From a virus, in IMG/VR virus record IMGVR_UViG_3300025759_000827, positions 1-21,560 of that record: 21,560 nucleotides of DNA; one strand, written 5' to 3'. The notes beneath the pieces were generated by a model that searched no databases, had not been told where the DNA came from, and saw nothing but the letters and a program-made list of their open reading frames with translations. Each line of letters opens with the position of its first letter. The first letter of the stretch is position 1. Below, one piece after another: positions 1 through 19,013 of the stretch. Position numbers and translations under genes: made by a program.

Positions 1-486
1 TTAAAGTGGTGTGAACACGCTATGAGAGCATCGTTACTAAGTCGTGGTGTTATTGAAGAAGAGGGAGATACTTTTAACCAAAAAGAATGGCGTGAGAGAA
101 ACAGACTTTACAGAAATGTACTTACTAGATTACACAGTCTAAACGTGGCTAAGGTATACTTTACCTTCCATCTAAAGGCTGTATCACAATACATGGATGA
201 CGGTACAGGTAAGAAAGTATTGATGACTGTTGGACACAGACCTGAATGGGAGAAAGGTACTATGCGTAAGTTCTCTCAACAAATCTTCCTAGCAAGATAC
301 CAAAAGAAGGCTGACTTGGCCGCAGGTGTCGAAGGTGACAGAAACCTAAAAGATAATGAGTGGGTTGTACGAGCAAAGATAGAAGAAATGAAAGGTCAAC
401 ATATTGAAAAGGTTGGCTCAGTACATGACGTAGCACGTATTTCTGACGGTAAGTTTGAGTTTATAGGGTTAGAGTGGTTGAAGTGA
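1..486 (+). CDS. RecA/Sak4-like recombination ATPase, C-terminal part (5' end outside window)
   Basis: The reading frame is open to the first base (leading residues LKWCEHAM), so this is the 3' end of a gene that begins upstream; the ATG at 22 need not be a start. About 160 residues are visible. A helix followed by the strand VAKVYFTFHLKAVSQYMDD, then GHRPEWEKGTMRKFSQQIFLARYQKKAD, resembles the C-terminal half of phage Sak4/AAA_24-type RecA-fold ATPases, where a central strand ends in a polar residue and is followed by a target-protein loop and a final strand. Walker A and B would lie outside the window, so the call rests on the tail and on context: it sits directly before a sliding clamp in a replication/recombination block. 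A single-strand annealing or recombinase role is inferred. Its stop overlaps the GTG start of the clamp gene, suggesting translational coupling. Confidence 0.5.
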   Translation, partial: LKWCEHAMRASLLSRGVIEEEGDTFNQKEWRERNRLYRNVLTRLHSLNVAKVYFTFHLKAVSQYMDDGTGKKVLMTVGHRPEWEKGTMRKFSQQIFLARYQKKADLAAGVEGDRNLKDNEWVVRAKIEEMKGQHIEKVGSVHDVARISDGKFEFIGLEWLK

Positions 487-1310
487 CTAATCAAATAGTA
501 GTGGAGACTGACTCGTTGAAGTGGTTGTTACAGTTAGCACAACGTAAACAAACAATTGACGGTAAAAGTATTCCTCAGATACACTCTGCTATGCTAATGG
601 CAGAGAACGGTAGACTGCGCTGCGGCTCTTTGGTTAAGGATGGTGTTACTTCTTTAATCAACGTCTCTATACCTTGTCACGGTAATTGTGATTTAGGTTA
701 CGCTATCTCAGACATTGATAACGTCTTAGGTATCTTAAAGTATCACGGTGGTGTTTTGACTATGATTAACAAAGGTAGTAAAATTGTATTCAAGAGTGGC
801 AGTAAACAAACTACTATCACAGGGAATACCGATTCTAGGGCTTTCCCACACACGGCAGAAACTATGGCACAATGGTATAAGAAGTCCCAATCTATCATCA
901 ATAAGATAGATGGCCTAGCCATGACCTATACTAAAAACGATGGCTCTGTGATAGAACCTACACTACTTTTCTCAGACTTAAACACTACCTCTTTGTATGA
1001 GGCGTTTAGGTGTGATTCTATGAACGGACAAAAGTTTAACAAATACAAATTATCTTGTGAAGATGGTAATTTATATGTAGACGTTGGAGAAGAACTTAAA
1101 GGTAAAACTAAGTCGTTGGTTGCAGAAAATTGTGCAAATATAGATTTCGAATCTACTTACAACGGTGGGTTAGAAGAAGTATTTAGAAACCTTAATAGTG
1201 ATGTCAATATCGCTATATGGGACTTTACAGAGGCAGACATGGGTTATCCTATGCTGATTACGCTAGGTGATGGCGATTTTATATTCCAAATGAGTAATTT
1301 GGGGGAGTGA
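483..1310 (+). CDS. PCNA-like DNA sliding clamp (divergent)
   Basis: Product of 275 residues, close to the usual 245-260 of PCNA. The N-terminal part (DSLKWLLQLAQ, then alternating strands, a conserved-looking AENGRLRCGSLVKDGVTSLINVSIPC segment, and SDIDNVLGILKYHGGVLTMINKGSKIVFKSG) follows the strand-helix-strand pattern of a clamp domain, and a second similar half ends with strands around IAIWDFTEADMGYPMLITLGDGDFIFQMSNL. Sequence similarity to cellular PCNA is weak, so the call rests on fold pattern and on its place among polymerase, primase and nucleases. It would form a ring tethering the polymerase to DNA. Start choice: GTG at 483 overlaps the previous stop as GTGA and has GAGTGG (472-477) five bases upstream; the alternative GTG at 474 would lie inside that Shine-Dalgarno-like sequence. 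Confidence 0.68.
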   Translation: MTNQIVVETDSLKWLLQLAQRKQTIDGKSIPQIHSAMLMAENGRLRCGSLVKDGVTSLINVSIPCHGNCDLGYAISDIDNVLGILKYHGGVLTMINKGSKIVFKSGSKQTTITGNTDSRAFPHTAETMAQWYKKSQSIINKIDGLAMTYTKNDGSVIEPTLLFSDLNTTSLYEAFRCDSMNGQKFNKYKLSCEDGNLYVDVGEELKGKTKSLVAENCANIDFESTYNGGLEEVFRNLNSDVNIAIWDFTEADMGYPMLITLGDGDFIFQMSNLGE

Positions 1311-1843: not shown

Positions 1844-4074
1844 TTATAGAAAGAGGCAGGGGCAGGGATGTAATAGTCCGAGGCCGTGACAAAAAAGGCG
1901 TTAGATACGAAAAAACCATTAGTGGTTATTGGCCTTATGCTTTTGTTTCTGATGAGGATGCCGAACATATAGAGGATGCGGTAAAAAAGGAAACTGGTTA
2001 CAAAGGTCTGTATGGTGAGAATCTAACAAAAATTGTTTGTGCTACACCTGCTGACATAAAAAACCTTTCTTATCATGGTACTACATGGGAAGGCAACATT
2101 CCTTATGAGAATAGAGTACTTGCTGACTACATAAATGATGGTAACGAACCGATAGAGAATTACAAACACAGAACTTGGTATATGGATTGTGAGTGGTCGC
2201 CCACGACCAATAAAATGAGAGTGATGGTTGTTTATGATAATTTTACCGAAAAAGAATATGTATGGTTTGTCGAAGAAACATTAGGTGATGAGTATAAACA
2301 CGGTAAAGGTAAAGCCTTTAGAGAGTACGGTGGTTACACATACGAAACACCTGCTTTGGCATTCAAGACAGAGCGTTCTATGCTAATACATTTCTTAAGA
2401 CATATGAAAAAATGCGACCCTGACATAATTACTGGATGGTATGTTGTAGGTGCAGATATAAGACAGATTATGGAAAGATGTAAAGCATGTGGTCTTTCCG
2501 AATTGACACTATCACCTATGAGAAGAGTAAGATACGAGTTTAAAGATTGGGCGCAACCTATCGTTGGTAGGAATTGTATAGATTTGATGATTGCTGTATC
2601 TAAATTGTGGGAGTTGAAGAACGGTAAATTACCTTCTTACAAACTAGATGATGTAGCATTTGAGATATTAGGAGAAAGAAAAATAGAGTTGGAAAAAGGA
2701 CACAATGAATCTTGGTGGGAAGATAAAGCACTTTACCTACATTATGCAAGACAAGATGTTAGATTGCTCCCTAAACTAGACCAAGCAGTAAACGCTTTGG
2801 ATTACTATACATCTCTACAACACATTGTACAATGTGATATACGCTCTACACCATTTATTACTAAGATGTTCACACAATTAGTGCTTACAGACTCCGAGTT
2901 TGATAGAAGGATTCCTACTAAACCACAGTTCTCTAAGGTAGATTACGAAGGCGCTGATATATTAGATGTCATTCCCGATGTATATGACAACGTAGGTATC
3001 CTAGATATCAAGGCTATGTATCACAGCAACGCTGCTAAATATAATATATCTTGGGATACTTTATCTGATGATGGTGAAGATTGTGGTAATGGTACTAAGT
3101 TTATACAAGGCGACAAAGGTTTATTGGTAAGACAGATGGATAAGATGACCAACCTCAGAGATATTTTTAAGATGAAAATGTTTGTGAGTGATGGTGCAGA
3201 AAAACGTAAATGGGATTGTATGCAGTTTGCTGCAAAATCCCTAGTAGCATCTATGTATGGTGTTTGTGGTGATGCTAAGTACGGTATGTATCATCCTGAG
3301 ATAGCCGCAGCGATAACATACACTTCTAGGAATACTCTAGGTGAATTGATGGTTGAGGCACAAAGAGTAGGTTTCAACGTATTCTACGGCCACACAGACT
3401 CAGTATTTTGTCAAATACCTTCACCTGAATTGGGTATGAGATTATTACCGCAAATAAATGAAAGAATGAGTCCTATCATAGTGCAGTTTGAAAAATGGTG
3501 TCCTAGACTTATCATGGTAGCCAAGAATAGATATACCGGAAAAGTAACTTGGACTGACGGTGAACATCATGACCCAACAATATATGTAAAAGGTATAGAA
3601 ATGAAACAAAGTAGAATGCCTACTGTTATGAAAGAGGCTATGTTGAATACTATTACGGGTATACTAAATAATGACAGCGAAAGCGACACCACAAAAAATG
3701 TAACAAACTTAATAGAATCTGTAATGAGTGGTAAAACACCCGCACAAGACTTATGTATGAAAGGTAAAATAGATAGAGATTTATCACAGTATAAAGTTTT
3801 GTCGGGTTCATCGGCAGGTGCGGCATGGGCTAATGAGTTTTTAGGTAAAGGGTATAGAGCAGGTTCTTTCTTCTTGGTAACTCTAGACGAAGATGGTAAA
3901 TACATAGCCTTTGATGACCCTTCTGAAATAGAAGGTATAAAGGAAATAGGTACTAAGATTCTTGTAGATAGATTTATCATAAAAAAAATATTACCTTACT
4001 ATGCTTTAGCGGGTTGGGATATGCAGCCACTAGAGAATGCTAAAAATGGTCTATCTAAATTATCTTGGTTGTAG
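1840..4074 (+). CDS. polB: Family B DNA polymerase with 3'-5' exonuclease domain, altered catalytic motifs
   Basis: Product of 744 residues, the viral replicative polymerase candidate. Exonuclease motifs: Exo I as D116-C-E118, Exo II ending at D206 (GWYVVGADI), Exo III as Y302-A-R-Q-D306. Polymerase motifs: A around D389 (DIKAMYHSN), B around K466 (KSLVASMYG), C around 516-521 (YGHTDS, with H518 and D520), and a KxRY-like motif (AKNRYTGK) then VKGIEMKQSRMPT. All four exonuclease acids are present, so proofreading is expected. Three polymerase motifs differ from consensus: motif A has His where YPS has Pro, motif B has Ala for the usual Asn, and motif C has His for the first Asp of GDTDS. The metal-binding Asp in motif A and the second Asp of motif C remain. 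It is about 10% shorter than typical archaeal PolB. Translation is coupled to the zinc ribbon upstream. Confidence 0.93.
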   Translation: MIIERGRGRDVIVRGRDKKGVRYEKTISGYWPYAFVSDEDAEHIEDAVKKETGYKGLYGENLTKIVCATPADIKNLSYHGTTWEGNIPYENRVLADYINDGNEPIENYKHRTWYMDCEWSPTTNKMRVMVVYDNFTEKEYVWFVEETLGDEYKHGKGKAFREYGGYTYETPALAFKTERSMLIHFLRHMKKCDPDIITGWYVVGADIRQIMERCKACGLSELTLSPMRRVRYEFKDWAQPIVGRNCIDLMIAVSKLWELKNGKLPSYKLDDVAFEILGERKIELEKGHNESWWEDKALYLHYARQDVRLLPKLDQAVNALDYYTSLQHIVQCDIRSTPFITKMFTQLVLTDSEFDRRIPTKPQFSKVDYEGADILDVIPDVYDNVGILDIKAMYHSNAAKYNISWDTLSDDGEDCGNGTKFIQGDKGLLVRQMDKMTNLRDIFKMKMFVSDGAEKRKWDCMQFAAKSLVASMYGVCGDAKYGMYHPEIAAAITYTSRNTLGELMVEAQRVGFNVFYGHTDSVFCQIPSPELGMRLLPQINERMSPIIVQFEKWCPRLIMVAKNRYTGKVTWTDGEHHDPTIYVKGIEMKQSRMPTVMKEAMLNTITGILNNDSESDTTKNVTNLIESVMSGKTPAQDLCMKGKIDRDLSQYKVLSGSSAGAAWANEFLGKGYRAGSFFLVTLDEDGKYIAFDDPSEIEGIKEIGTKILVDRFIIKKILPYYALAGWDMQPLENAKNGLSKLSWL

Positions 4075-6614: not shown

Positions 6615-7313
6615 ATGCTCCTAGTAGATGACCGAGAAAACCCTAAAGTAGTTAATAAATTACTCATGCGTATGGGTAATGATAAGGTAAAAGTATGTAG
6701 ACTGCAAGCAGCAGATTATATTCTAGGTACTTGCGGTGTAGAGGCAAAAGAAATAAATGATTTATACCGTTCTATTATGGGGTTCGGGCGCACAAGAACT
6801 ATTGTTGCACAACTCAGAGATTTACAAGAAGAGTTCGAGAATCCTATGTTAGTGGTTTACGGTACAGAACTAAAACCTTTTATACCCGGCCGTAGGCCGA
6901 ACGCTAGGGAAACTGCTATGGAAATGGCTCGTATGAAAAAAGTAATACAGCAATTTAAGACTACATTCTATCAACGATTTCCAAAAATTAGATTTATGCA
7001 ATTAACTACTATGGATGATTTTACAGAGTGGTTAGTTGTAAACCACACACAACAAGATATGAAACTATACAAACAATCTCCTCATGTACAACAAGCAGTA
7101 AAAAAATCTGATTTAGACCCTCGCGTCAGGGCTTTGTCTAGTGTTGACGGTGTAACACCAACAATGGCAGAAGAGTTGTTAAAAGAGTTCGGTAGTATAC
7201 CTAGTCTGTTGAGGGCTAGAACTACACAAAAACAAATAACACAAATTAACGGCATAGGTAAAAAAAGAGCAAAGGCTATTCTATCTCTCAGAAAAAAGTT
7301 TAACTCAAACTAG
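6615..7313 (+). CDS. ERCC4/XPF-type structure-specific nuclease with HhH domain
   Basis: Product of 232 residues with no helicase domain, like the nuclease half of archaeal Hef/XPF. Nuclease motifs: VDDREN at 4-9 (D5, D6, E8), AADY (D34), and E43-A-K45-E-I-N-D49 followed by LYRSI, corresponding to the family's ERKxxxD motif with Ala in place of the Arg. Residues about 170-230 hold two helix-hairpin-helix units (SSVDGVTPTMAEELLKEFG and ITQINGIGKKRAKAILSL), the DNA-binding and dimerisation part of the family. It probably cuts branched DNA at replication forks or recombination intermediates. It has its own promoter-like element. Its last 14 bases overlap the end of the tail-hub gene on the opposite strand. 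Confidence 0.9.
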   Translation: MLLVDDRENPKVVNKLLMRMGNDKVKVCRLQAADYILGTCGVEAKEINDLYRSIMGFGRTRTIVAQLRDLQEEFENPMLVVYGTELKPFIPGRRPNARETAMEMARMKKVIQQFKTTFYQRFPKIRFMQLTTMDDFTEWLVVNHTQQDMKLYKQSPHVQQAVKKSDLDPRVRALSSVDGVTPTMAEELLKEFGSIPSLLRARTTQKQITQINGIGKKRAKAILSLRKKFNSN

Positions 7314-14270: not shown

Positions 14271-17057
14271 CTATGTACTAGCCATAGAAAGTGATATACC
14301 ACTCAAGTTTGCTCTACTCTCTATCTCTTCTATAATTTGCTCTGCTACTTCAGGTATTGTCATACCGTTGAAGTTATTAGTCATGATTACCTCTGTGTTA
14401 GTAATAAGGTTTTCTACTCCTTGTTGTTTGACTTGTCTGATTAAATCTCCTGTCAAGTTACTAGCACTAAATCCATAGAACAATTCTTCTCTAGCATTAG
14501 CAAACTCATACATAGCATCTGTACCTGCTTCCAAAGATTCGTTTATTCCTTGAACCGCATCACTAGTAGAAGAATCTATGCTATTACTTGTTGCAGATGC
14601 AGTCGCTTGTATAAAAGTGTTTAGTTCCGATATACTATCTATACCTTGTCTTTCTAACATAGCGATAACCTCAGCATTTTCCTTTTCTAAGGCTGCCAAT
14701 TGTGGCTTGATTACCGCAGCAGTACCTCTCATTATCATTTGGTCTCCTGTTGCCGCAGCCGCAGCCATTTGTTCCTGTAATCTAACCTGTTCTTCCATTA
14801 CTGCAACTGCGTTTTCATCTCTAGCAAGAGCAATATCTTTTGCCTGTATTAAATCATCTGCCCTTTTTTGCGCTGCGTCTGCTGCTGCTTTCGCTGCACC
14901 ACTTTCTGCATCCCCTAAATCCTCTACTATTTGTAATTGATACTCTAATTCAGCATTTATATCTTGTATACTCATTTTTTGTTCATCTAATATACCTAGA
15001 ACAGTAGATAAATCTGTAAATGATGTGTTGACATCGTTGACACTATTAGACATATTAGACATTTTGCTTGCTAAATACCCTGCGGCAAGTAAAGCAACAC
15101 CGATAGCACCGGCAGCGATAAGTATTGCTCTTTGATTTGCTATCAATGCTGCTGTGAATGTGTTTGTCACGCCCGTTTGAAAAGTTTTTGCTGCTGCATC
15201 TTGATACGCAAGTTTAATACTTCTCAAACTTACACCATTATTAATTATTTTTGCTTTAGTATCCATTATTGTTGCTGCTGTACTAGCCAATAATTTACCC
15301 ATTTGTATTACCATAGCAAAGGTATTGAGAATCATACCCATTCTCATACTCTTTTGGCTTTTACCAAACATCATCAAACCAGTACCTAACATACCATATC
15401 CCATTGATAGAGCATTCGCTGATTGACTAGCCATCTGTGCTGCTGCATCCATTTGCATTGTACTCCAAGATACTTGGCCTTGTTTTGCTGCCATAAGGTC
15501 GTAAGCGTGTATTTTTCTTTGTATGGATTCTGTATGTGTGCCTTCTGAGTTTATCATTTGCCCTATCAAAACTCCTCTTTGTTTTAACAGACTGTTGTGG
15601 AATGACTCTTGCTGTATCATAGTTTCTGTTACTTTTTTCTTAAACATATCTTCGCCATTCATAGCCCTTCTTACGTGTCTTAATGCTTCGGTAGCAATAC
15701 GTAAGTTCTGTACTGCCAAGAATGTTTGTATTAATGGTCCTACTACTGTTCTCATCATCTGTGCACCAGCAAAAACTCTAGTCAGTCTAGGATATGCCTC
15801 TATTAACTGTAATACACCGTCAAAGAAAACTGTTTGTACCTCTGCGCTTCTTTGCATAGCCGGCATAAGTTCATCGGCTAAAGCACCCTTGACGCTTTTT
15901 AATCGTGCTTCTGTTTGCTCTAGTTGGTATAAATTAGTATCTTGTAATCTTTCTATTTCCTCGTAAGCAGGGAAGGTGGCCGCCAAAGCATCGGCTTCTA
16001 ATTCTCTCATACGACCTGTGTTTTCAAGAAGTTTGATAAGACGAGTATAGTGTAGATTACCTGCAACAGTTTGCGCCAAGTTAGACTTTTGCGCCCCTGT
16101 CATAGTATCATATTCTGTTGATACATCTTGTAATATGTCAGACAATGGCCTCATAGCACGCGTCTCTGCATCTATGACAGCAATACCTAATTCTTCTATT
16201 GCCTTTCTAGCACCATTAGTATCAGCACCTAGACGAGCATATATTGTCCTTAAGGCTCTACCACCCTTACCTTGTTCTTCACCGGCCTCAACTAACACAG
16301 CAGACATAGCAGCCATAGCCGCTATACTTTCACCTGTAAGATGTGCCTGTGATGCGAATTGATTCATAACGAAAGTTATCTGTTGCATGGTAGCAACCGA
16401 TGTATTTTCTACTGTGTTAAGTTGGTCTAGGATTTGAATTGTATTTTCCCTTATTTTATTATTTCTTTCAGCCTCAGTAGCATTATCTCTGATATTCTTT
16501 GTCATAAACTTTGTCTGCTGATTTAAGTTTACTAATCTTTGCATGGCTTCGTCTGTTGACATACCTGCTATAAGACCAAACGCCATACCCATTTCTGTAC
16601 CAGTAGCGGTAGAGCCTTGACCTAACACACCTGCCAACTGTGCCATTTTAGCACCTGCTTGGAATGACTCATCCGCAGCAAAACCAAAGGAGTGACCTAT
16701 CTCAATAATCTGAGCGTTTAGTGCCTCAACATCTTCTCCGGCAGTTACGAACTTTTCAAACTGTCTCTGTGCTTCCCCTATCTCTCTACCAATAGGAATA
16801 ATATCATCCATCAGTTGATTGAAACCTTCACCTAGTTCCATCACACCTTCTTGCACACCAACTAATGCGTCAACATACAACGCTTCTACGATAGTAGCAG
16901 ATGCCTTAGCATCTTTGATTAATTTATCGACTTGCATCGTACCTACGATGTCGAAGAATATCCTAGAAGCACCGGCACGTAGAACGACCATAGTAACGGC
17001 CATACTGATAAAAACTAAGGGTGCAAAATACGCTAGTATAAGATTTGCTTCCATCAT
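14271..17057 (-). CDS. Tail tape measure protein (928 aa)
   Basis: Sets tail length and passes through the tube at DNA ejection. Residues about 80-400 carry the TP901-type tape-measure domain (IIEIGHSFGFAADESFQAGAKMAQLAGVLGQGSTATGTEMGMAFGLIAGMSTDEAMQRLVNLNQQ, later MQQITFVMNQFASQAHLTGESIAAM and GKGGRALRTIYARLG). Hydrophobic segments lie at the N-terminus (LILAYFAPLVFISMAVTMVV) and near residues 640-665 (AILIAAGAIGVALLAAGYLA). Much of the rest is helical and Ala/Gln-rich with coiled-coil stretches. At roughly 0.15 nm per residue it implies a tail of about 140 nm. Start: tandem ATGs at 17057 and 17054 preceded by GGTGA, a Shine-Dalgarno form fitting archaeal 16S rRNA. It follows the chaperone genes and precedes the hub gene by only eight bases. 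Confidence 0.92.
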   Translation of the reverse strand: MMEANLILAYFAPLVFISMAVTMVVLRAGASRIFFDIVGTMQVDKLIKDAKASATIVEALYVDALVGVQEGVMELGEGFNQLMDDIIPIGREIGEAQRQFEKFVTAGEDVEALNAQIIEIGHSFGFAADESFQAGAKMAQLAGVLGQGSTATGTEMGMAFGLIAGMSTDEAMQRLVNLNQQTKFMTKNIRDNATEAERNNKIRENTIQILDQLNTVENTSVATMQQITFVMNQFASQAHLTGESIAAMAAMSAVLVEAGEEQGKGGRALRTIYARLGADTNGARKAIEELGIAVIDAETRAMRPLSDILQDVSTEYDTMTGAQKSNLAQTVAGNLHYTRLIKLLENTGRMRELEADALAATFPAYEEIERLQDTNLYQLEQTEARLKSVKGALADELMPAMQRSAEVQTVFFDGVLQLIEAYPRLTRVFAGAQMMRTVVGPLIQTFLAVQNLRIATEALRHVRRAMNGEDMFKKKVTETMIQQESFHNSLLKQRGVLIGQMINSEGTHTESIQRKIHAYDLMAAKQGQVSWSTMQMDAAAQMASQSANALSMGYGMLGTGLMMFGKSQKSMRMGMILNTFAMVIQMGKLLASTAATIMDTKAKIINNGVSLRSIKLAYQDAAAKTFQTGVTNTFTAALIANQRAILIAAGAIGVALLAAGYLASKMSNMSNSVNDVNTSFTDLSTVLGILDEQKMSIQDINAELEYQLQIVEDLGDAESGAAKAAADAAQKRADDLIQAKDIALARDENAVAVMEEQVRLQEQMAAAAATGDQMIMRGTAAVIKPQLAALEKENAEVIAMLERQGIDSISELNTFIQATASATSNSIDSSTSDAVQGINESLEAGTDAMYEFANAREELFYGFSASNLTGDLIRQVKQQGVENLITNTEVIMTNNFNGMTIPEVAEQIIEEIESRANLSGISLSMAST

Positions 17058-17069
17058 TTTTATTCACCG

Positions 17070-17360
17070 CTACTCTTCGGGTCGATTTATAGTCTCGACC
17101 CCGCTATCTCTCAATATATCGAGCAGTTCATTATTGTTTGATAATAGTTTGCGTTTCTCACGCCTTTGATTGCGTCTAGCAACCATAGCATTTGCATCTT
17201 GTTTGGCTTTACCAGTAGCCTCAGTTATCTTATCATTGATGTCTGCCGCTATGATTAAATCTAGTTCCATAAGATGCCTTCCGCCCTCGACGGAATACTT
17301 GAGCCATAAATCAGACGGTAATGTCCCTTTGAAGGCCATACAAAGGCTCGGTGCGACCAT
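17070..17360 (-). CDS. Tail assembly chaperone, second part (gpT-like; reached by -1 frameshift or restart)
   Basis: Frame of 96 residues: a short N-terminal region (VAPSLCMAFKGTLPSDLWLKYSVEGGRHLMELDLIIAADI), then a basic helical tail (ARRNQRREKRKLL). In long-tailed phages the second chaperone gene (lambda T) is made mainly as a fusion to the first through a -1 frameshift and loads the tape measure. Size, position between the first chaperone and the tape measure, and the -1 frame relation all match. The ATG at 17360 overlaps the upstream stop as TGATG, so independent restart is also possible. The frame is open upstream of this ATG back past the slippery site, giving SEFL as the linking residues of a fusion of about 213 residues. 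Confidence 0.72.
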   Translation of the reverse strand: MVAPSLCMAFKGTLPSDLWLKYSVEGGRHLMELDLIIAADINDKITEATGKAKQDANAMVARRNQRREKRKLLSNNNELLDILRDSGVETINRPEE

Positions 17361-17710
17361 CAGGAACTCTGAAAAGGGACTGCGCCTTCTGTATCGTCGC
17401 CCCTTACAAATTGTAGAATAGTATTCAGTTCCTCAAATGTCAATAGATTGTAATCAACATTCTCATCAATGATACAAGGTGGAATCCATGTTTCCATCTG
17501 TGTTTCTATTCCGCCACCCATTTCATCTACTATTGTAGCAAACTCTTCGTTTTGCTCATCAGTCCAACCAGTAGGGTCGCCCGCGTGTTTCATTTTACGA
17601 AACGCTTTACCTTGTATATTGGTAATTTTCAGTTTTTCCATACCGGAAGCCTGTCTTACCCAAATCTTTGTTCCATCTTCTAACTCTATCTCTTTCTTCA
17701 TTACTGGCAT
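17360..17710 (-). CDS. Tail assembly chaperone, first part (gpG-like)
   Basis: Product of 116 residues from the ATG at 17710 (an in-frame GTG at 17719 would add three). It starts MPVMKKEIELEDGTKIWVRQASGMEKLKI, a compact beta opening typical of tail assembly chaperones, then a helical, acidic C-terminal half ending LNTILQFVRGDDTEGAVPFQSS. In siphoviruses this protein coats the tape measure during tail assembly together with its frameshifted longer form. The gene stands between the tail-tube and tape-measure genes, as in lambda-like phages, with a slippery heptamer eight codons before its last sense codons end. A TATA-like element 47 bp ahead of the ATG suggests its own late promoter. Confidence 0.8.
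   Translation of the reverse strand: MPVMKKEIELEDGTKIWVRQASGMEKLKITNIQGKAFRKMKHAGDPTGWTDEQNEEFATIVDEMGGGIETQMETWIPPCIIDENVDYNLLTFEELNTILQFVRGDDTEGAVPFQSS
17372..17378 (-). other. Predicted programmed -1 frameshift site (CCCTTTT)
   Basis: On the minus strand the end of the first chaperone frame reads GTC CCT TTT CAG, so C CCT TTT is a perfect X XXY YYZ slippery heptamer in the zero frame. Slipping back one base continues as TCA GAG TTC CTG ATG GTC, entering the second chaperone frame with no stop. The location is exactly where lambda-type G-GT frameshifts occur. A 6-bp hairpin (CCTTTG at 17346-17341 with CAAAGG at 17331-17326) begins about 25 nt downstream, farther than the usual 5-9 nt, so its role is doubtful. 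Confidence 0.75.
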
Positions 17711-17750
17711 AATTACCACTCACTCTCGCTGTATCTACGAGTCTATAAGG

Positions 17751-17763: not shown

Positions 17764-17940
17764 TTACTCTTCTTCATCAATTACTTTTACGTCAACTTTA
17801 ACTTTAGTAGCAACTGCCTTCATAGGATATCTTCGAATGTATCTAGGGATTTTGTGTACAGGCATTTCTAAAATACCTTGCATCTCATCATCAGGGATGT
17901 CTCTACCGAAAGAGTCTATGTATTCTTTCATTAATCTCAC
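17764..17940 (-). CDS. Small hypothetical protein between tail tube and tail chaperone (58 aa)
   Basis: Frame of 58 residues from GTG at 17940, which overlaps the tail-tube stop as GTGA; an in-frame TTG at 17949 and an ATG at 17931 are alternatives. The product starts with a helical acidic part (MKEYIDSFGRDIPDDEMQGILEM), has a basic middle (HKIPRYIRRYP), and ends in a Val/Lys-rich strand with an acidic tail (KVKVDVKVIDEEE). I do not recognise a family. Tight coupling to the tail-tube gene and its place before the chaperones suggest a tail assembly role, but this is inference. Confidence 0.65.
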   Translation of the reverse strand: MRLMKEYIDSFGRDIPDDEMQGILEMPVHKIPRYIRRYPMKAVATKVKVDVKVIDEEE

Positions 17941-19013
17941 GCATTCCAAACAATTGCAGAAGTACCGAAGTCTCCACCGTCTGCTGTAACTTTCATCATT
18001 GACTCTGTTGTGTCATCATATAATGCTACGAAACCAACACTCATTGTTTGTGTATCCCTTCCGCTTACTGATGCTTCAGGCGCTTCGAATCTAATGTTAA
18101 AGAACTCCATTTTTAAGAAGTTAGTCGTACCGTTAGATTCTTCTTCGAATAATAGTGTAAGTGCATCGTTACTTGAACCCGGATTGTAAGCCAATCCATC
18201 TTCAGCGACTAATGTATCGTATGTTGGTATAGCGGCAGCATCACCGTCTAGGTTATTTGCGGAGTGTATAATTTGGTTAAACTCAATAGTACCAGTTACT
18301 TCTCTTCGTTGTGAAGGTGGCTGTCTTACATACGTAGAGTTACCAAGAGCATAAGCATTGTCTGTATCCCTATTCATGTTTATTTCAAAAGAAACAGATT
18401 TAACAACACCTACTGCTGTATTGCCCGAATTGTTGAATGTAACAGTACCGTTTGAGAAATAGAGTGCATCTAACGCATCTCCCTCAAAAGAAAGTGTTCC
18501 GTCGGTGTTAGTAAGTGTAGCAGTTGCTTTTTCTCTGCATCCTACCCAATCACAAGACAACATAACATATTCCCCAACATTTGCTGTCAGAGAAAGTCTG
18601 TTAGCCATCATACCTACGTATGTGTGTTCTTTATCTTCTCTTCCGACACGTATTGTATATGAATCGTAAGAATCTGCGTCAGTTGCGTAAGCGTGTGTAC
18701 CGTCAGTAGGTTCTTCCCAAATGTGGAGAGGGTCTGAGAAACTGTATTTAGGGAAAAATGCTAATAGTGTAGCACCTAAAAATGTATCTAATTGTACGGC
18801 CATATTATATCCGCCCTCAGAATATTCTCCGCCTGTAACGGATTTAGCAGAACCATAATGACTCATATCTTGCCTTGTAAGCAAATCCATTCTTGTTGCG
18901 AATGACTCATCATCTACTTCACCATAATATATGGTATTTGCGGAAGAGTTTTCCACACCGTAGGCATCTTCTAATTCAAGAGAAACGTATCTATTTAAAA
19001 CTTCATTACCCAT
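17937..19013 (-). CDS. Major tail tube protein
   Basis: Product of 358 residues, mostly beta-strands with few charges, as expected of a tube subunit. The stretch VKSVSFEINMNRDTDNAYALGN...RREVTGTIEFNQII is a hallmark of siphovirus tail-tube families: a strand pair, a long loop with an aromatic/proline segment, then the 'vtGtiefn' strand. The C-terminal strands (FLKMEFFNIRFEAPEASVSGRDTQTMSVGFVALYDD) complete the pattern. Gene order supports the call: tail terminator upstream, chaperones and tape measure downstream. Start: ATG at 19013 with GAGG seven bases upstream; the longer frame from GTG at 19040 would read through that Shine-Dalgarno sequence and is rejected. A TATA-like element at 47 bp upstream suggests a strong late promoter, as suits an abundant virion protein. 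Confidence 0.85.
   Translation of the reverse strand: MGNEVLNRYVSLELEDAYGVENSSANTIYYGEVDDESFATRMDLLTRQDMSHYGSAKSVTGGEYSEGGYNMAVQLDTFLGATLLAFFPKYSFSDPLHIWEEPTDGTHAYATDADSYDSYTIRVGREDKEHTYVGMMANRLSLTANVGEYVMLSCDWVGCREKATATLTNTDGTLSFEGDALDALYFSNGTVTFNNSGNTAVGVVKSVSFEINMNRDTDNAYALGNSTYVRQPPSQRREVTGTIEFNQIIHSANNLDGDAAAIPTYDTLVAEDGLAYNPGSSNDALTLLFEEESNGTTNFLKMEFFNIRFEAPEASVSGRDTQTMSVGFVALYDDTTESMMKVTADGGDFGTSAIVWNA

Follow-up and report, generated by a model that had tools for sequence, protein, structure and literature searches.

Phage lambda, whose host is a bacterium, carries the slippery site G_GGA_AAG in its pair of tail chaperone frames. These two small frames overlap between the tail tube and tape measure genes, and a -1 shift at the X_XXY_YYZ site near the end of G gives a long product, gpGT, besides the short gpG (Xu, Hendrix and Duda, 2004, as cited in PMC5009743). 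A -1 G-T frameshift has also been proposed for the haloarchaeal viruses HVTV-1, HCTV-1, -2 and -5 (PMC8211752, PMC5009743) and for Hardycor1 (PMC7911831). The annotation of HVTV-1 joins its chaperone frames into one CDS, and the virus also encodes a DNA polymerase, RecB and a Hef nuclease. Together with one cellular gene, this handful of haloviruses made up the earlier archaeal evidence. The first-pass annotation of the DNA analysed here had singled out a G-GT frameshift beside archaeal-type replication genes; the frameshift is supported, but the archaeal setting is not new (PMC8211752, PMC5009743, PMC7911831). A literature search, which did not extend to the first haloviral frameshift paper or to several of those on magroviruses, found no report of frameshifting in marine archaeal viruses.

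The kind of system is therefore already known from phages and proposed in a few haloarchaeal viruses, and what is new is a well-sampled member with the site C_CCU_UUN. This site differs both from that of lambda and from the purine-rich sites of the haloarchaeal viruses (G_GGA_AAC/G/T, A_AAA_AAC). No sequence-family match to known chaperones was found, and G of HVTV-1 has no profile similarity to G of the window, by which we mean the whole stretch of 21,560 nucleotides that was analysed. The gene order of the window (tube, G/T, tape measure) puts the pair in the same place as lambda G/T, with the following features.

17937..19013, minus strand: tail tube protein, upstream of G (PF18906 Phage_tube_2, 5e-21)
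17360..17710, minus strand: G, tail assembly chaperone by position, 0 frame, 116 aa, kept from its ATG in about 90 distinct relatives
17372..17378, minus strand: slippery heptamer C_CCT_TTT (X_XXY_YYZ), from direct reading, conservation and synonymous resampling
17070..17375, minus strand: T, which extends G in the -1 frame and runs from the re-paired TTT (17375-17373) to a TAG stop, beginning F-SEFL-MVAPSLCMAFKG...
17358..17362, minus strand: TGATG overlap of the G stop (17362-17360) and a possible T restart codon (17360-17358), from the sequence
17324..17366, minus strand: possible downstream stem-loop, weak evidence from clade alifold and folding z
14271..17057, minus strand: tape measure protein, directly downstream of T (PF10145, PhageMin_Tail, 2.6e-18; phrog_5448, 4e-21)

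On the minus strand, the sequence of 17420-17360 is ...GGC GCA GTC CCT TTT CAG AGT TCC TGA TGG, which bears out the earlier claim of an in-frame C CCT TTT at 17378-17372 near the end of G. In the G frame, the P-site codon of the heptamer is CCU (Pro) and the A-site codon UUU (Phe), and three sense codons separate the heptamer from the G stop TGA (17362-17360). After TTT, the -1 frame continues as TCA GAG TTC CTG ATG (S E F L M) and meets no stop until 17072-17070, so that the predicted G-T fusion has 113 + 100 = 213 aa, exactly as large as the roughly 213 residues expected from a stop-free -1 entry. A small correction concerns the start of G, which had been placed at the GTG at 17719: the likely start is the ATG at 17710, with the GTG as an alternative. 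An unannotated 55-aa ORF (window 17764-17931, minus strand) separates G from the tail tube gene; tblastn gave 24 matches to it upstream of G in 89 loci, counting the window.

Judging from the sequences, the G/T pair very probably makes a short and a long chaperone by -1 slippage at C_CCU_UUN. Most ribosomes would translate G and terminate at TGA, while in a minority the Pro and Phe tRNAs at C_CCU_UUU would re-pair one base upstream, on CCC UUU; for these ribosomes the G stop would no longer lie in frame, and translation would run on through T to yield the 213-aa fusion. If the roles known from lambda apply, the tape measure protein would be coated by G, and tail-tube subunits would be brought in through the T portion of the less abundant fusion; the ratio of G to G-T, set by the slip, would matter for this reason.

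The case for slippage comes from conservation. Scans with G returned 59 loci first, and profiles were used afterwards, with 80 loci listed per scan and many contigs repeated. The site counts refer to 90 distinct G/T pairs from the matches listed, which stem from many metagenomes; as these relatives share ancestry, the counts are to be taken as a measure of conservation and not as probabilities. A perfect heptamer occurs at the same codon in 69 of the 90 (CCCTTTG in 33, CCCTTTT in 17, CCCTTTA in 17 and AAATTTT in 2), nine have T_TTT_TTG one codon later, eleven have a relaxed N-YY_TTTT (N-CC or N-CA_TTTT), and one, L123, is rearranged. When codons were resampled synonymously in 500 trials, the mean was 4.1 perfect heptamers and the maximum 11 of 90, and elsewhere in G an in-frame X_XXY_YYZ is found at 0.39% of codons. 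The Pro codon in the P site is CCT in 76 of 76 cases, versus 122 of 337 (36%) elsewhere, and its codon conservation ratio of 3.57 is the highest among the last 33 codons of G. In the tree, CCC_TTT spans all deep clades except the T_TTT_TTG clade. The site is kept whether G continues for 0 to 5 codons after it, and also where an insert precedes it (L287). In relatives retrieved by T alone, the junction falls precisely on CCCTTTG or CCCTTTA, also where G departs from the FVRGD motif (L297, L300) or carries the insert (L287). T lies in the -1 frame in 81 of 82 distinct pairs and in the +1 frame in one, and in all 81 pairs of the -1 kind the reading from the shift site into T is free of stops. In one clade, whose junction is GTT AAT TTT TTG (the AAT clade), the codon upstream brings a TAA into the -1 frame, so that only a shift at T_TTT_TTG can give the fusion there. 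The conserved heptamer and the open -1 frame together support the lambda-style -1 programmed frameshift that had been proposed for the window.

The first-pass annotation had also pointed to the TGATG overlap as a competing route. This holds for the clade of the window, where 25 of 28 members have TGATG or TAATG, but the ATG overlap is absent from all relatives outside it and missing in 65 of the 90 overall. In many relatives, at least 32 bases separate the stop from the first ATG of T, and conserved T sequence precedes that ATG. One clade has the G stop abutting the heptamer (CCCTTTA TAG or CCCTTTG TAG), with the first ATG of T 32 bases further along. Conservation of T starts at the shift codon, roughly as F-x-E/D-F-x-x-V-A-P, and together with the missing overlap this shows that restart is not the general route. 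Slippage is, as far as can be read from these sequences, and restart may add free T in the clade of the window.

Such a combination, with slippage giving the fusion and restart some free T, is compatible with the main explanation, and we regard it as possible though on the doubtful side. TGATG or TAATG is retained in most of the clade even though it can be lost, as it was in L007, L018 and L056. On the other hand, the bases of the overlap serve the G stop and conserved residues of T as well and could persist without restart, and the overlap is limited to this one clade. Translational coupling as the sole route, with ribosomes stopping at TGA and restarting at ATG to make T as a separate protein of 95-96 aa and the heptamer being incidental, is very unlikely. 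It would fit the overlap in 25 of 28 members, and also the loss of the first C of the heptamer, which is confined to that clade and might suggest a constraint eased by a second route. However, all other clades lack the ATG overlap, and L018 and L056 have neither the overlap nor a perfect heptamer. Moreover, the residues F-S-E-F-L before the ATG are conserved in the -1 frame: SEFL, the four codons before the ATG, is kept in 23 of 28 members of the clade, whereas the 0 frame varies. In the predicted model of T, the first 50 residues have pLDDT of at least 90, and the first helix starts upstream of the ATG.

Slippage by RNA polymerase along the T run, yielding mRNAs that lack or gain a base, is less likely still: a TTTTTT run, present in the AAT clade and in L004, L005 and L030, could permit it, but the commonest site, CCCTTTG (33 of 90), has three T only, and a run of three T is too short for polymerase slippage. 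That one gene was split in two by an assembly or sequencing error is next to inconceivable and refuted for the -1 type, with about 90 distinct pairs from many metagenomes showing the same overlap.

Slippage at C_CCU_UUN, the reading we prefer, does not require every base of the heptamer. A, G or U replaces the first C in 11 relatives, all within the clade of the window, and two of these also have CAT (His) in place of the Pro codon; textbook re-pairing in the P site is therefore not strictly kept in this clade. The first base is other than C in 11 of 28 cases when an A-site UUU follows CCU or CAU, versus C in 50 of 50 when the A-site codon is UUA or UUG. UUU after U re-pairs perfectly in the -1 frame, and the P site may then matter less. 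The relaxed first base is confounded with the ATG overlap, as both occur in the same clade, yet L018 and L056 are relaxed without having the overlap. With these variants, the rules of slippage could readily be tested on ribosomes that are probably archaeal.

The rearranged relative, L123 (IMGVR_UViG_3300025110_000229, 3300-3350), is a single contig and the sole one with T in the +1 frame. Its junction reads GTA TCC TTT CGT TGA, then VEFLQVAPALCMAFKG, with UCC_UUU_CGU abutting the G stop UGA. UCC_UUU_CGU is the +1 shift site of influenza A (PMC5009743), which the L123 junction matches exactly, and TTT-CGC has been proposed as a +1 site in HF1-group haloviruses (PMC7230728). In the tree, L123 is nested within the T_TTT_TTG clade; it lacks the GTGAGGG/CCCTCAC stem of its sister viruses. 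When an extra T is supplied, G overruns the 0-5 codon tails of its relatives and no perfect heptamer appears at the junction, so a single missing base is not a simple explanation. Further +1 relatives were sought by DNA pattern, and the four other matches were unrelated sequence. On balance, we lean slightly towards the view that the L123 lineage switched its chaperone pair from -1 to +1, and that the family is a series of shift-site replacements that keep one fusion, probably under archaeal translation. If true, the series would comprise C_CCU_UUN, U_UUU_UUG, the relaxed N-CC_UUU_U and UCC_UUU_CGU. The analysis extends predicted G-T frameshifting to a widespread group of uncultured marine viruses with about 90 distinct examples, and it is their many and varied natural shift sites that give the finding its value.

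Possible stimulators of slippage differ between clades. Upstream, the anti-SD duplex energy was no better than in synonymous resampling, which gives no sign of a Shine-Dalgarno stimulator, and downstream RNAalifold found no structure common to all clades. For the clade of the window alone, the alifold energy was -9.0, versus -3.5 +/- 2.1 for shuffled columns, and the folding z against codon permutation reached -1.46 at the offset of 17324..17366, the lowest in the clade profile; the stem-loop at this position is a possible, weak candidate for stimulating slippage. By the same measure, the AAT clade reached a z of -2.27, lowest just past the shift site, and the TTG clades had no folding minimum just after the shift site. 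A clear downstream stem is present only in the AAT clade, which is distant from the window, as a near-invariant GTGAGGG-loop-CCCTCAC hairpin 5-6 bases past T_TTT_TTG.

L131, 3348-3366: GTGAGGG/CCCTCAC hairpin, with equivalents in L138, L141-L145, L149, L150, L158 and L197

The stem shows no covariation, and as its pairs hardly vary, this neither supports nor opposes it.

G and T are best explained as the tail assembly chaperones of a long-tailed virus. The chaperone assignment, already made in the first-pass annotation, is supported by their position between the tube and tape measure genes and weakly by the predicted fold of G. The AlphaFold2 model of G (pLDDT 93.7) has the HK97 tail assembly chaperone 2ob9 as its first match, both in Foldseek against PDB, with a weak E of 0.18, and in VIA, with a weak Z of 4.7 and an rmsd of 4.0 over 81 residues; YqbN 3klu is second in VIA (Z 4.6, likewise weak). 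These are the nearest solved folds, at 12% (2ob9) and 5% (3klu) identity and with weak scores. Many of the BFVD matches of the model are annotated as viral tail assembly chaperones. Neither G nor T falls into a Pfam or PHROGs family or has a significant chaperone profile match there, the best chaperone hit being phrog_344 (E 0.039, in 5 of 50 members), and the predicted fold of T has no useful match in PDB. G has a weak tblastn match (29% identity, E 2e-3) in Sinorhizobium phage Phosso (PV764938, 292596-292835), at a place where the annotation gives a tail tube protein gene.

The host is probably an archaeon, and the virus may be magrovirus-like, judging by three features of the genome. Haloarchaeal viruses give the best coverage of the B-family polymerase (about 24% identity), an XPF/ERCC4-HHH nuclease gene is present, and the replication and virion modules run in opposite directions, as they do in Apasviridae (PMC12999244). 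Species genomes searched for a host or provirus contained no relative of G, and the phage capsid family PF05065, sought as a taxonomic marker, had no match in five long relatives. A 278-aa protein encoded among the replication genes (window 474-1310, plus strand) is by position a candidate sliding clamp; it has no Pfam or PDB sequence match, and its assignment as PCNA is unproven. The replication and virion modules meet at window 7300-7313, where the XPF-type nuclease gene (plus strand) and a 2321-aa virion gene (minus strand) overlap tail to tail by 14 bases.
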